NCBI RefSeq assembly: GCF_029626265.1
Contig: NZ_JARUBN010000001.1
Location: 1,612,001 to 1,676,000, forward strand
Direction of reading: 5' to 3'
From: Micromonospora sp. WMMD1102
GTDB taxonomy: Bacteria; Actinomycetota; Actinomycetes; Mycobacteriales; Micromonosporaceae
Length of the DNA: 64,000 nt
Both the position numbers and the translations under genes were made by a program. Position 1 is the stretch's first letter, and every line of letters begins with the position of its first letter. The notes under the pieces are model-generated. The model did no database searches and was not told the DNA's origin. It saw only the letters and a list, made by a program, of their open reading frames with translations. Shown in pieces: positions 24,855 through 31,052 of this stretch.

Positions 24855-24908
24855 GTGCGCGTGACGAAAAGCTCAGCGAAGCAGCCGGCGAAGGCAGGGG
24901 TGGCAACC

Positions 24909-27062
24909 ATGGCGGCAGGGCCTGACCGGGAGAAGGCACTCGACCTTGCTCTCGCTCAGATCGACAAGCAGTTCGGCAAGGGCTCGGTGATGCGGCTGGG
25001 GGAGCGGCCGGTCATCCAGACCGCCGTGATCCCGACCAGCTCCATCGCGCTCGACGTGGCGCTCGGCGTGGGCGGCCTGCCGCGCGGCCGGGTCGTCGAG
25101 ATCTACGGCCCGGAGAGCAGCGGTAAGACCACCGTCGCGCTGCACGCGGTGGCCAACGCGCAGAAGGCCGGCGGGATCGCCGCGTTCATCGACGCCGAGC
25201 ACGCCCTCGACCCGGAGTACGCGAAGGCGCTGGGCGTCGACACCGACGCGATGCTCGTCTCCCAGCCCGACACCGGTGAGCAGGCGCTGGAGATCGCCGA
25301 CATGCTGATCCGGTCCGGCGCGCTGGACATCATCGTGATCGACTCGGTCGCCGCGCTTGTGCCGCGCGCCGAGATCGAGGGTGAGATGGGCGACAGCCAC
25401 GTCGGCCTCCAGGCCCGGCTGATGAGCCAGGCGCTGCGGAAGATCACCGGCGTGCTCAGCCACACCGGCACCACCGCGATCTTCATCAACCAGCTCCGGG
25501 AAAAGATCGGGGTCATGTTCGGTTGTGGATCATGGGATACGAAGGTGACCCTGGCCGACGGATCTCAGGAGCTTCTCGGCAGGATCGTCACGGAGAAGAT
25601 GGACGTCGAGGTGCTCTCCTACGACGGAGAGCTGGGTTGCCTCAGGCCGCGTCGGGTCGTCAACTGGTTCAACAACGGTAAGACCGAGGAGTTCCTGCGG
25701 TTCAAGGTCGATCGGGCCGGTGGTGGCTCGGGACATGGTCGGGCAACCATGTCGATGACCCGGAACCATCTCATCATGACCCCCGGTGGTTGGCGCGAGG
25801 CCGGCGAGCTTACGGTCGGCGACCGGGTGATGCTCGCCCAGCCGCACCTGCTCGGCCCCTCGCAGTGGCAGATCGTGCTCGGCTCGCTGATGGGAGACGG
25901 CAATCTCTCGCCTGCCGCCCGGCCAGACAGTGAGAGCGGAAGGTTCCGGATGGGGCACGGCGCCAAGCAGGCCACCTACCTGGACTGGAAGGTCTCGCTG
26001 CTGGCCAACGTCCCGCACTGTCGCACCTCCAACGCCAAGGGTGCCGTCTTCGCCGACTTCACACCGCTCGCCGAGCTGGGTGAGTTGCGTCAGGCGGTCT
26101 ACCTGGGCGATGGCAAGAAGCACCTGAGCTGGGATTACCTCAAGGGGCTCACTCCGCTGGCTCTCGCCGTGTGGTACATGGACGACGGGACTTTCACCCT
26201 GCGCTCGAAGGGGCTCCAGGAACGAACCAGGGGCGGCAGCGGTCGCGTCGAGATCTGTGTCGAGGCGATGAGCGAGGGAAGTCGGCAACGTCTGTTGGAA
26301 TACCTACGCGACGGTTGGCGCCTCGACGTCAAACTGGACCGCCGAGGTAAGCGCCAGGTCAACACTTTGTTGTTCACCACCGCAGCATCGGAGAAGTTCC
26401 AGGAGCTCGTGGCGCCCTACATCCCCGAATGCATGGAATACAAGCTCCTGCCGAAGTTCCGTAGGCAGTGTGCCGTGGTGCCGGAGTTCATGGAGCCGGT
26501 CATGCATCCGCTTCCCGCACGGATTCTCGACATCGAGGTGCGGCGCGACTACAAGACGATGGACCGGTTCGACATCGAGATCGAGGGCTCGCACAATTAC
26601 CTCGCGGACGGCATCCTGGTACACAACAGCCCGGAGACCACCACCGGTGGGCGAGCGCTGAAGTTCTACGCCTCGGTCCGGCTCGACGTGCGACGCATCG
26701 AGAGCCTCAAGGACGGCACCGACGTGGTCGGCAACCGGACCAGGGTCAAGGTGGTCAAGAACAAGGTCGCGGCCCCCTTCAAGCAGGCCGAGTTCGACAT
26801 CATGTACGGCAAGGGCATCTCCCGGGAGGGCTCGCTGATCGACGTCGGCGTCGAGCAGTCGATCATCCGCAAGTCCGGTGCCTGGTACACCTACGACGGC
26901 GACCAGCTCGGCCAGGGCAAGGAGAAGGCCCGCGAGTTCCTCCGGGAGAACCCGGACGTGGCCGCCGAGATCGAGAAGAAGATCCTGGAGAAGCTCGGCG
27001 TCGGGGTGGCCTCCGGCGCGGACGCGGCCGGCGGGCCGGAGCTGCCGCCGGTGGACTTCTGA
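24909..27062 (+). CDS. recA: RecA recombinase precursor, interrupted by an intein
   Basis: Precursor of 717 residues: 349 residues of RecA plus a 368-residue intein. RecA binds single-stranded DNA, drives strand exchange and activates LexA self-cleavage. Walker A is GPESSGKTT and Walker B ends [12 protein letters not shown]. The first extein ends at REKIGVMFG (Gly205) and the second starts [18 protein letters not shown], so the intein splits the DNA-binding L2 loop and blocks activity until spliced. The ATG at 24909 begins the typical [20 protein letters not shown] codons at 24855 and 24861 are in frame and possible for the PafBC-type transcript. recX follows 23 bases downstream. Confidence 0.97.
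25524..26627 (+). other. RecA intein with LAGLIDADG homing endonuclease
   Basis: 368-residue in-frame intervening sequence. It begins [14 protein letters not shown] (Cys1 nucleophile), has a block B TRNHLIMT, and ends [11 protein letters not shown] (penultimate His, terminal Asn) followed by extein Ser+1. The endonuclease half has both LAGLIDADG motifs, [10 protein letters not shown] and [11 protein letters not shown], with acidic residues kept, so it may still cut. The site after Gly205 corresponds to the Mycobacterium leprae RecA intein site, not the M. tuberculosis one. Codon use is slightly less GC-rich than in the exteins, as expected for a mobile element. Confidence 0.95.
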
Positions 27063-27865: not shown

Positions 27866-28573
27866 GTGTTGCTGAAGGCATGCCTCAACGGCGGGGTACG
27901 CCGTGCCGAGCACCCCGCCGTGCCGATCAGTCCCGCCGAGCTGGCCGCCGACGCGGCCCGGTGCCGTCTCGTCGGTGCCGGCGCGGTGCACGTCCACCCT
28001 CGGGACCGGGACGGGCGGGAGTCGCTGGCCGGTGCCGACGTCGCGGCCGCGGTCGGCGCGATCCGTCGAGCCTGCCCCGGCCTGCCGGTCGGGGTCAGCA
28101 CCGGCGCCTGGATCGAGCCGGATCCGGCGGCCCGGGTGGCGGCGGTGCGCGGCTGGACCGTGCTGCCGGACTTCGCCTCGGTGAACGCGCACGAGCCGGG
28201 TGCCGAGCTGGTGGCCGCCGCCCTGCACGAGCGGGGCGTCGGGGTCGAGGCGGGCGTCTGGACGGTCGAGGCCGCGGCGAATCACCGGCGGTGGCGGGTG
28301 CCCTGCCTGCGGGTCCTGGTCGAGTGCATGCGCCCGGAGCCGGCCGACGCGCTGGCCGACGCCGTCGCGATCCTCGGCACACTTCCCGACGACGCCCCAC
28401 CGGTGTTGCTGCACGGCGAGGGCCCGGCGACCTGGGCGGTACTGGCCGACGCGGTCCGGCGCGGGCTCGCCACCCGGATCGGACTGGAGGACATCCGTAC
28501 CCTCCCGGACGGCTCACCCGCACCCGGCAACGCGGAGCTGGTCGCGGCGGCGGTGGCGCTGGGCGCCGGTTGA
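27866..28573 (+). CDS. BKACE-family (DUF849) beta-keto acid cleavage-like protein
   Basis: 235 residues, shorter than the usual 270-310. Family features are an N-terminal LKACLNGGVRRAEHP, the metal-binding AVHVHPRDRDGRESL and a C-terminal TRIGLEDIRTLPDG. Characterised BKACE enzymes condense a beta-keto acid with acetyl-CoA to give acetoacetate and a new CoA ester. Several loops of the full family are missing, so activity is uncertain. GTG start 9 bases after recX, so probably cotranscribed, an unusual partner for recA-recX. Confidence 0.75.
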   Translation: MLLKACLNGGVRRAEHPAVPISPAELAADAARCRLVGAGAVHVHPRDRDGRESLAGADVAAAVGAIRRACPGLPVGVSTGAWIEPDPAARVAAVRGWTVLPDFASVNAHEPGAELVAAALHERGVGVEAGVWTVEAAANHRRWRVPCLRVLVECMRPEPADALADAVAILGTLPDDAPPVLLHGEGPATWAVLADAVRRGLATRIGLEDIRTLPDGSPAPGNAELVAAAVALGAG

Positions 28574-29063
28574 CCGCGCAGCGGCACGGCCGAACGTCGG
28601 GCCTCGGGACAACCGAAAGTTGAGCGGCGCCGGCCCCGACGGTGGAGTCGGATTTCGGACTCGCCCCCTTATGCCCGCCCTGCTAACAGCTAGTGGTGAG
28701 CGTGCCGTCGCCCTCCGTCAGGCAGGGGGCTGGATCATGAGTTTCTTGACCGAATGCCCCATCGCGACCTAGCCTCGCCTTAGACGAGTTTTCCCGACCA
28801 TTGCAGGCTAAGCGCACAACATAGATCGCGTAACAGTACGGCATCACTTCAGGCCGGGTTCACCGGCCAGATATTTCGGTCACCGAACGGGCCGGTCCGG
28901 TGACCGCAGCACCAGCAGCACCCGGTCGTCGGCGGTGTCCCCGGGGGCACTGCCCGGTGGCCGTACCCTCGGCCAGCCGCCTCGGTCGGGCGTCGTGACA
29001 GCCGTAGGGCACGTCTCACCCATGGACGTGACCTCCGGCGCGGACGGCACAGGGGAGGCGGCC
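28574..29063. other. 490-base intergenic region before the rny leader
   Basis: I see no convincing gene here. TTGACC (28746-28751) and TAGCCT (28770-28775) with an 18-base spacer make a possible sigma-70-type promoter reading right. Base composition around 28740-28850 is clearly less GC-rich than coding neighbours, as expected for a regulatory stretch. Short ORFs in both strands lack ribosome sites and coding bias. Confidence 0.4.
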
Positions 29064-29120
29064 ATGACCGAGCGGGCCAAGATCGGTAGCGGATGCAGGC
29101 ACGCCGGAGTGCCGGCATGA
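29064..29120 (+). CDS. Leader mini-ORF 0 (18 codons), ATGA-coupled
   Basis: ATG with GGGGAGG upstream, encoding MTERAKIGSGCRHAGVPA. Its TGA overlaps the ATG of the next mini-ORF. An in-frame ATG at 29022 would add 14 residues. It ends in GVPA like the two following mini-ORFs. Whether it is translated is unknown; the layout suggests a coupling leader for rny. Confidence 0.4.
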   Translation: MTERAKIGSGCRHAGVPA

Positions 29121-29200
29121 GCGAGCAGCGCGAGCGAATCGGCCTGTTCAGTGCGGATGTGCCTCATGGCGGCACGCAGCGCAGCGGAGTGCCGGCATGA
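29117..29200 (+). CDS. Leader mini-ORF 1 (27 codons), first 80-bp repeat copy
   Basis: Begins MSEQRERIGL and ends RSGVPA. The start is preceded by GGAG at a normal distance. The stop codon overlaps the start of mini-ORF 2 (ATGA). Its peptide differs from mini-ORF 2 at one residue, Leu for Gln. No known family. Confidence 0.45.
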   Translation: MSEQRERIGLFSADVPHGGTQRSGVPA

Positions 29201-29280
29201 GCGAGCAGCGCGAGCGAATCGGCCAGTTCAGTGCGGATGTGCCTCATGGCGGCACGCAGCGCAGCGGAGTGCCGGCATGA
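29197..29280 (+). CDS. Leader mini-ORF 2 (27 codons), second 80-bp repeat copy
   Basis: Second copy of the peptide, beginning MSEQRERIGQ and ending RSGVPA. Its TGA overlaps the ATG of rny (ATGA), so ribosomes ending here could restart on rny. The same GGAGTGCCGGCATGAGC string precedes this ORF and rny. Confidence 0.45.
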   Translation: MSEQRERIGQFSADVPHGGTQRSGVPA

Positions 29281-31052
29281 GCGCCCTCGAATGGGCGCTG
29301 CTGGCCGCCATCGTCGGGCTGGCCGCGCTGGTGGTCGTCGCGATCAGTCTGGGTGCCCGTGCGCTGCGCCGGATCGGAACCGTGACCGCCGCGCCGGCAG
29401 CCGACGACCCGGCCTTCGTCGCCGAGAAGGACCGGCAGGAGCAGTCGCTTGCGGCGCTGCGTACCGCAGCCGACGAGGCGTCGTCGAGCGTCGACACGGC
29501 CAAGTCCGCCGCGGCTGCCGCCCGAGCCGACGCCGCCGCGGCGAAGGCCGAGGCGAGCGCCGCCCGGGCCGAGGCACAGCGGGTACTCGACGCCGCCCGG
29601 GCCGAGGCCGACACCGTGCTGGACCGGGCGCACCGGCAGGCCGAGGCGGATGCCGAGCAGGTACGCGCGGCGGCCCGGCGCAGCGGCGAGCGGGAGATCT
29701 CGCTGCTCGCCTCCACCACCAGGGAACAGGCGGCCGAGGTGGAGCGGCGGGCACAGCGGATGGACGAGCGGGAGCGGCTGCACACCGAGGAGGTGGAGCG
29801 GCTCGCCGAGCGGGAGCGCGGGCTGACCGCGATGGCCGCCGAACTGGCCGCCCGCAAGGCGGCACTGGTCGCCCGGGAGAAGGCGCTGGCCGAGGCGGAG
29901 GAGCAGCGCAGGCGGGAGCTGGAGCGGATCGCCGGGCTGACCGCCGAGTCCGCCCGGGTCGAGCTGGTGGAGGCGATCGAGGGCCAGGCGAAGCGGGAGG
30001 CGGCGATCCTGGTCCGGGACATCGAGTCCGACGCCCGGAACACCGCCGAACAGCGGGCCCGGCACATCGTGGTGGACGCCATCCAGCGGGTGGCCAGCGA
30101 GCAGACTGCCGAGAGCGTGGTAAGCGTGCTGCACCTGCCCGGCGACGAGATGAAGGGCCGGATCATCGGCCGCGAGGGGCGCAACATCCGGGCCTTCGAG
30201 TCGGTCACCGGGGTCAACCTGATCATCGACGACACCCCCGAGGCGGTGCTGCTCTCCTGCTTCGACCCGGTACGCCGGGAGATCGGCCGGCTGACCCTGG
30301 AGAAGCTGGTCCTCGACGGCCGGATCCACCCGCACCGGATCGAGGAGGTCTTCGAGACCGCCCGGCACGAGGTGGAGCGGCTCTGCCAGCGGGCCGCCGA
30401 GGACGCCCTGGTCGAGGTGGGGATCACCGAGATCCACCCGGAAATGGTCAGTCTGCTCGGCCGGTTGCGCTATCGGACGTCGTACGGGCAGAACGTGCTC
30501 AAGCACCTGGTCGAGACCGCGCACATCGCCGGGATCATGGCTGCCGAGCTGCGCCTGGACATCCCGTTGATCAAGCGGTCCGCCTTCCTGCACGACATCG
30601 GCAAGGCGCTCACCCACGAGGTCGAGGGGAGCCACGCGCTGATCGGCGCCGACCTGGCCCGCAAGTACGGCGAGACCGAGGAGGTGGTGCACGCGATCGA
30701 GGCGCACCACAACGAGGTGCAGCCGCAGACCGTCGAGGCGGTGCTGACCCAGGCGTCCGACGCCTGCTCCGGCGGTCGGCCGGGCGCCCGCCGGGAGAGC
30801 CTGGAGGCGTACGTCAAGCGGCTGGAGCGGATCGAGGAGATCGCCGCCGGCAAGTCCGGGGTGGAGAAGGTCTTCGCGATGCAGGCCGGACGGGAGATCC
30901 GGGTGATGGTCAAGCCGGACGACGTCGACGAGATCGGCGCCGCGGTGCTGGCCCGGGACGTGGCCAAGCAGATCGAGGAGGAGCTGACCTATCCCGGTCA
31001 GATCCGGGTGACAGTGGTACGCGAGTCCCGGGTCACCGAGATCGCCCGCTGA
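29277..31052 (+). CDS. rny: Ribonuclease Y
   Basis: Membrane-anchored endoribonuclease that starts mRNA decay, 591 residues. A single N-terminal membrane helix (about 5-28) is followed by a long Ala/Glu/Arg coiled coil (about 40-270). A KH RNA-binding domain has GRIIGREGRNIRAFESVTG (about 297), and an HD domain has FLHDIGKALTHE (about 440) holding the metal-binding His-Asp. The usual length is about 520, the extra residues lying in the coiled coil. The ATG overlaps the stop of leader mini-ORF 2. Confidence 0.95.
   Translation: MSALEWALLAAIVGLAALVVVAISLGARALRRIGTVTAAPAADDPAFVAEKDRQEQSLAALRTAADEASSSVDTAKSAAAAARADAAAAKAEASAARAEAQRVLDAARAEADTVLDRAHRQAEADAEQVRAAARRSGEREISLLASTTREQAAEVERRAQRMDERERLHTEEVERLAERERGLTAMAAELAARKAALVAREKALAEAEEQRRRELERIAGLTAESARVELVEAIEGQAKREAAILVRDIESDARNTAEQRARHIVVDAIQRVASEQTAESVVSVLHLPGDEMKGRIIGREGRNIRAFESVTGVNLIIDDTPEAVLLSCFDPVRREIGRLTLEKLVLDGRIHPHRIEEVFETARHEVERLCQRAAEDALVEVGITEIHPEMVSLLGRLRYRTSYGQNVLKHLVETAHIAGIMAAELRLDIPLIKRSAFLHDIGKALTHEVEGSHALIGADLARKYGETEEVVHAIEAHHNEVQPQTVEAVLTQASDACSGGRPGARRESLEAYVKRLERIEEIAAGKSGVEKVFAMQAGREIRVMVKPDDVDEIGAAVLARDVAKQIEEELTYPGQIRVTVVRESRVTEIAR

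Follow-up and report, generated by a model that had tools for sequence, protein, structure and literature searches.

The closest described counterparts of the repeat analysed here are the MIRUs of mycobacteria, whose mini-ORF is reportedly coupled at both ends by DTGA, as described by Supply et al. in 1997. Other short, dispersed and hairpin-forming sequences, namely the REP/BIME, MITE and IS200/IS605-type elements, are presumably moved by a protein encoded elsewhere and are mostly extragenic. According to the sections of PMC2734929 that deal with them, MIRUs are dispersed units of 40-100 bp, variable in copy number in some cases, and their function is not well understood; the corresponding passages of PMC4128351 give 77 nt as the length of the class I MIRU and describe MIRU-based typing as widely used for M. 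tuberculosis. In the part of PMC12548453 on their insertion, MIRUs enter at start codons and carry an internal ORF whose coupling to the gene, at -4 nt, is taken to make insertion possible with little effect on that gene. For one M. tuberculosis gene, the variable length of an upstream tandem repeat was correlated with the mRNA level, as stated in the section of PMC2734929 on that gene. Overlaps of the ATGA and TGATG types between genes, with termination-reinitiation, are described in the relevant portion of PMC6728339.

In the 64,000-nucleotide stretch of DNA analysed here (the window), the gene for RNase Y (rny) is preceded by three mini-ORFs of 18, 27 and 27 codons chained into it by ATGA overlaps, the TGA of each overlapping the next ATG, and all three peptides end in GVPA. 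Direct reading of the sequence confirmed this arrangement, which had been reported in a first-pass annotation, together with the 80-bp tandem pair that it contains: the units at 29105-29184 and 29185-29264 differ at a single base (T at 29145, A at 29225; a Leu and a Gln codon, respectively). The tandem unit is not a product of chance: the pair has a Tandem Repeats Finder score of 351, and three further gene starts of the same genome carry the unit (E 2e-13 to 2e-19). The features of the region are as follows.

28746..28775, + strand: promoter-like TTGACC-N18-TAGCCT, about 500 nt before rny; the motif is visible in the rny leaders of relatives
28806..28850, + strand: conserved block GGCTAAGCGCACAACATAGATCGCGTAACAG..., conserved in the family before rny
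28976..28983, + strand: GCCGCCTC, complementary to the SD region of the leader ORF (sequence; paired in the predicted fold)
29055..29062, + strand: GAGGCGGC, SD region of the native leader ORF and other arm of the stem (sequence; predicted fold)
29064..29120, + strand: native rny leader ORF, 18 aa, MTERAKIGSGCRHAGVPA, ATGA-coupled (sequence reading and relatives)
29117..29200, + strand: mini-ORF 1, MSEQRERIGLFSADVPHGGTQRSGVPA, 27 aa (sequence, family copies and rny leader comparison)
29197..29280, + strand: mini-ORF 2, MSEQRERIGQFSADVPHGGTQRSGVPA, 27 aa (sequence, family copies and rny leader comparison)
29117..29196, + strand: 80-bp MIRU-like element copy 1, insertion unit ATG...CCGGC (tandem, with genome and family matches)
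29197..29276, + strand: 80-bp MIRU-like element copy 2 (tandem, with genome and family matches)
29163..29201, + strand: start-codon hairpin of copy 1, CTCATG...CATGAG (family hairpin data)
29243..29281, + strand: start-codon hairpin of copy 2, with the rny ATG in its 3' arm (family hairpin data)
29277..31052, + strand: rny, RNase Y, 591 aa (Pfam RNase_Y_N, HD and KH_1 above cut-offs)

The distant promoter-like site and the conserved block are consistent with, but not proof of, a transcript that would cover all of the mini-ORFs. A strict pattern for the block matched 9 of the 23 rny loci and a single site in the window, with near matches by eye in L111-L113, and the block is kept even upstream of rny genes without a leader ORF (G008 and G011); it is possibly a promoter or an RNA element of rny. 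The complementarity of GCCGCCTC and GAGGCGGC was seen by eye across the genus and is altered in G014 and G012, and the predicted stem is a possible means of hiding the SD of the native leader above the relay. The fold of the whole rny leader has a z of -1.73 (4 of 100 shuffles as good), and the interval 28500-29500 had no Rfam match up to E 1. Elsewhere in the window, at 24855-27062, a recA-like ORF (735 aa) holds an inserted stretch that looks intein-like by eye.

The gene rny was located in 23 of 29 genomes, and the leader was walked in the 14 of these whose start could be read (L107-L120); the remaining nine belong mostly to other families. An unbroken DTGA chain leads into rny in 12 of the 14, despite widely differing leader sequences and lengths, which indicates that the coupling outlives great sequence change; in G008 and G011 rny starts directly at an SD with no leader ORF. 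The native leader stands alone, with no 80-bp unit, in G016 (16 aa), G014 (18 aa) and G012 (24 aa, GTG start), and a single longer leader is found in G006 (43 aa), G007 (83 aa) and G009 (112 aa). The leader is followed by one further mini-ORF in G001 (26 aa), G002 (37 aa), G003 (27 aa), G004 (26 aa) and G005 (27 aa), that of G004 being a decayed unit missed by the DNA search, and by two only in the window genome (G000) among the 14. The suggestion of the first-pass annotation that the chain could act as a translational relay is supported by these leaders in a comparative sense. We also considered the first mini-ORF as a third copy of the unit and rejected this, as it is present in relatives without any unit; that the 18-codon leader is a decayed older unit is a guess.

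The number of units at rny varies between species: two in G000, one in G001, G002, G003 and G005, and none in G012, G014 and G016. Such variation between 0, 1 and 2, together with the coupling in 12 of the 14 leaders, would suit a device in which the tandem units tune rny specifically, through the number of units or the flow of ribosomes, as feedback control of an RNase that degrades its own transcript. The upstream tandem repeat of M. tuberculosis whose length goes with mRNA level (section of PMC2734929 on that gene) also speaks for this, but the effect there is on the transcript, and the repeat is more complex than the 80-bp unit at rny. Specific tuning is nevertheless unlikely, since the second rny copy is a one-base-different duplication confined to the window species among the 14 leaders walked, and since the unit is also found in front of ilvN, argG, a dop-like gene and numerous unrelated genes. 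The proposal of a feedback device special to rny is therefore not upheld; copy-number tuning of rny as such is possible, but the pattern can be explained without it.

Four strong unit loci occur in the window genome, at rny, ilvN, argG and the dop-like gene, the last with two tandem units; Pfam identifies the genes that follow as acetolactate synthase small subunit (ilvN), argininosuccinate synthase (argG) and Pup_ligase (the dop-like gene). A covariance model adds two weaker copies in this genome. One of them (L206, G000:C1:1373651-1373741) lies just before a gene that looks rnc-like (RNase III) by eye, and two RNase genes of the window genome may thus carry the unit. All seven genomes of the genus (G000-G006) contain matches, 3 to 35 each, and in the family they occur in at least 58 of 121 genomes, with at most seven candidates scored per genome. 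The unit is thus a dispersed repeat, an outcome that the first-pass annotation had paired with a lack of relation to gene starts; the dispersal is real, and the repeat is tied to gene starts. A plain slippage duplication of the rny start region, with no mobile element, accounts for one part of the picture, in that the two window units differ at one base and the second probably arose by local duplication. For the unit as such it is contradicted by the empty sites and by the presence of the unit in front of other genes and in further genera, and we regard it as extremely improbable.

To describe the unit, 113 loci (L054-L106 and L130-L189) were sampled from the longer and stronger matches, and a profile search of these gave 131 distinct copies, 114 of them full-length. 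A mini-ORF whose TGA overlaps the next start is present in 110 of the 114, although family copies are kin and these counts are non-independent trials. The four failures comprise a lost next start (L077), two frameshifts (L078 and L161) and a start picked 6 nt upstream by the script (L158). Unit lengths were 80 nt (78 copies), 77 (21), 71 (5), 74 (3) and 68 (2), all of them 2 mod 3, as the TGA/start overlap requires; lengths of 75 and 79 are frameshifts, and 83 and 86 reflect starts picked further upstream by the script. What follows the 110 coupled mini-ORFs is an ORF of 80 aa or more in 92 cases, a further mini-ORF in 14 and something shorter in 4; an SD-like core is present in 108 of them. 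At the other end, the 5' TGA also terminates an upstream ORF of at least 100 aa in 53 of 96 first units, compared with 11.5% of 1758 control TGAs from the same loci, and many insertions therefore seem, from sequence, to have hit pre-existing ATGA gene overlaps.

Empty and filled sites were compared between sister species. At ilvN the unit lies between the SD and ATGAGCAAG in G000 and G002 and is absent from G001, G003, G004, G005 and G006, where the flanks are continuous with few base differences. The argG site is filled in G000 and G003 and empty in G001, G004 and G005; G002 and G006 gave no argG match at E 1e-60. At dop there are two units in G000, one in G002, G003 and G005, and none in G001, G004 and G006. 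Relative to G005, G000 is exactly 80 bp longer at both ilvN and argG. Where the empty sites are clear (ilvN, argG and dop), insertion left no scar and kept the target gene whole; the length of any target duplication is not readable, because the element's own 5' end is ATGAGC. Two further observations concern these sites. A 9-codon coupled mini-ORF (MGxRSEAxA) stands directly before the unit, or before dop where the unit is absent (L396-L402), and may be the 3' remnant of an older unit. Two other genera seem to have different, shorter mini-ORFs at the ilvB-ilvN junction, seen by eye at G009 ilvN (L376) and G007 ilvN (L377), which suggests repeated use of the site.

The reading frame of the unit is open in 78 of 78 copies of 80 nt, against a mean of 61.4 of 78 (range 49-73, 2000 rounds) under neutral substitution resampling. 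Column variability by codon position is 0.61, 0.62 and 0.68 bits, with almost no third-position excess. It is thus the frame, rather than the peptide, that is kept, and peptide-level selection as the main force was rejected on the near absence of that excess.

A second conserved property is a hairpin at the 3' end of the unit, with the consensus CUCAUG-G-CGGCAC-GGAGCGAAGCGGA-GUGCCG-G-CAUGAG, where CAUGAG forms the start of the following ORF. In a set of 38 diverse copies, 26 cells were changed on both sides, compared with 7.4 +- 2.3 after shuffling (0 of 500 shuffles), and 88.3% of hairpin cells were paired, compared with 81.9% in shuffled and 22.5-48.6% in slid versions; the scored hairpin was derived from the same sequence family and the copies are related. 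Columns 57 and 73 illustrate the exchange in the 78 copies of 80 nt, with AT in 40, CG in 10, GT in 8, GC in 7, TA in 4 and other combinations in 9. The predicted pairing of the start codon was 0.85 in the family (n=110), compared with 0.42 when the upstream 55 nt were shuffled, and 0.80 against 0.47 in the phylum (n=76). RNAalifold gave a weak consensus on the diverse alignment (-0.95 kcal/mol, 7 pairs). For the double unit of the window the predicted stability is unremarkable (z -1.11, equalled by 23 of 200 shuffles), and in its best fold the arms of one copy pair with those of the other.

IS200/IS605 and REP/RAYT elements are hairpin-ended units moved as single strands, and an IS200/IS605 or REP-type assignment involves a link to a transposase, hairpin ends and guide pairing with the target. 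By analogy, the hairpin could be a transposon-like end moved in this way, with the element's CTCAT guiding it to ATGAG targets and any RNA effects as by-products. The 3' arm at the base of the hairpin is the target CATGAG, mostly paired with the element's CTCATG (CTCATG..CATGAG is exact in 55 of 78 copies of 80 nt); ATGAG follows all 78 of these copies, these columns being part of the profile that found them; and insertion was precise at ilvN, argG and dop. Against a purely DNA-level role, the 51 distinct arms contain 19 G-U but only 2 A-C cells, beside 260 Watson-Crick cells and 25 others. Folding also favours the sense strand over the antisense strand beyond what composition gives in shuffles: -5.06 against -3.76 +- 0.25 in the family (105 copies) and -4.23 against -2.06 +- 0.28 in the phylum (74 copies). 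These two results favour selection on the mRNA strand for the predicted hairpin, and the open frame and in-frame indels likewise point to translation. We consider it rather improbable that the hairpin serves DNA with RNA effects as mere by-products; RNA and DNA roles of the hairpin are compatible with each other.

Taken together, the 80-bp unit is likely to be a dispersed, non-autonomous element of the MIRU-like kind, which enters precisely at start codons, with a preference for ATGAG, and whose downstream gene would be translated by hairpin-gated reinitiation. As the comparison of genomes and copies shows, insertion passes the former ribosome site on to the mini-ORF of the element and places a new SD and an ATGA overlap before the target gene. 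The mini-ORF remains open and able to couple although its peptide changes, and a hairpin of the mRNA strand, in which the next gene's start codon is paired, is conserved towards the 3' end of the unit. The hairpin would then close the new start until ribosomes on the mini-ORF open it, and the target gene would be read mainly by termination-reinitiation, with ribosomes passed on from the mini-ORF. Since the translation of the gene would be borrowed from the element, insertion could be tolerated, and could be nearly harmless at any site already translated; this agrees with the view of MIRUs in the insertion section of PMC12548453. Mobility of the unit is itself something we infer. At rny, an older native leader ORF was probably already coupled to the gene, and the unit would have entered that ATGA junction within the genus; in the window species it was apparently duplicated in tandem, so that with the native leader ribosomes would be passed on three times.

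The reach of the element beyond the family was assessed by a pattern scan of named genomes across the phylum, with the 5' end and 3' motif fixed and the start codon, frame and junction left free. At least 120 stretches were found, 80 of which were listed; the scan gives no frequencies, and the 5' conservation in it follows from the selection. Among the matches listed are at least 13 named genera, namely Plantactinospora, Micromonospora, Catellatospora, Planosporangium, Paractinoplanes, Nocardia, Antrihabitans, Streptomyces, Kitasatospora, Kribbella, Nocardioides, Actinopolymorpha and Microbispora, and MAGs among them add Pseudonocardia and others. All 85 elements in these listed matches have a DTG start, and in 76 of the 85 a mini-ORF of fewer than 45 codons ends in a DTGA overlap. 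The nine failures include two elements without a stop before the end of the sequence (L214 and L220), one that reads on for 605 codons (L217), four with 45-55 codons yet an ATGA end (L229, L232, L237 and L284) and two in tandem with a CTGA end (L255). The wide distribution rests on this pattern scan and not on the first phylum model (R1), which under strict filters matched 3 of 296 genomes, the window genome included.

A sequence model built from the listed elements gave 17 matches in G434 and 5 in G180 among 41 genomes of one family (f8) and, in one genus (g51), 11 matches spread over 7 of the 148 genomes; going by abundance only, we take f8 and g51 to be Mycobacteriaceae and Mycobacterium. 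Seven of the 11 matches in g51 have a DTGA junction (five 22-aa mini-ORFs, equal to 65-nt units, one of 32 aa and one of 12 aa) and four do not. Weak matches in G458 were rejected as relatives of the unit because they belong to a different GAGCGCAGCGAGG repeat, and none of the other weak f8 matches is counted. That repeat, GAGCGCAGCGAGG...GTGTCGA, is itself dispersed, has many weak model matches and was observed at L333 and L357 (G458).

A broader reading is possible, and we offer it tentatively: a class-wide actinomycete family of mobile translation gates of about 65-80 nt, which would recognize starts through CTCAT/ATGAG, enter without scars and carry a hairpin lock reopened only by mini-ORF ribosomes. 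Starts would thereby become coupled, stacks such as that at rny would be multi-step relays, and the MIRUs would be the mycobacterial branch. The presence of the same anatomy in ordinary actinomycetes, together with the empty sites of sister species and the covarying hairpin, could in any case provide a model in harmless laboratory strains for target choice, mobility and hairpin-gated reinitiation. It also carries a warning for annotation: a mini-ORF that stems from an element stands immediately before some actinobacterial genes, and where the unit continues in frame (the single case of 605 codons, L217) the N terminus itself comes from the element.

Searches of the open-licence literature, which is not the whole literature, did not find such elements outside mycobacteria or the start-codon hairpin, and sequence and peptide strings gave no relevant paper there. 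Relative to that literature, the new elements of this work are a family outside mycobacteria (at least 13 named genera, with MAGs) and a covarying start-codon hairpin. The first-pass annotation knew of no described example of such coupled mini-ORFs; the mycobacterial MIRUs, in the insertion section of PMC12548453, are one.

The unit resembles the overlaps described in the relevant portion of PMC6728339 in having a 4-nt stop/start overlap from which coupling is expected; the partners there are ordinary genes, whereas one partner here is a mini-ORF within a dispersed element, and its product has no obvious function. It is short, dispersed and hairpin-forming, like REP/BIME, MITE and IS200/IS605-type elements, and contains a CTCATG/CATGAG match, but unlike these elements it is open, translatable and bound to start codons.

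The likeness to MIRUs is closer. A unit of 68-80 nt recurs at many loci (four strong and two weak here, up to 35 per genus genome), with tandem copies whose number differs between genomes at rny and dop. The 3' junction has the -4 coupling in 110 of 114 copies and the 5' TGA ends an ORF of at least 100 aa in 53 of 96 (control 11.5%), and insertion at start codons leaves the gene intact in the comparison of empty and filled ilvN, argG, dop and rny sites. The class I length of 77 nt, as given in the MIRU passages of PMC4128351, is shared by 21 of the 114 full-length copies. Two differences set the unit apart: the host of the window lies outside Mycobacterium, and the covarying start-codon hairpin is absent from the MIRU descriptions in the sections concerned of PMC12548453, PMC4128351 and PMC2734929. 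With a host outside the mycobacteria, and with M. tuberculosis MIRUs compared by description only, the 80-bp unit is called MIRU-like, not a MIRU.
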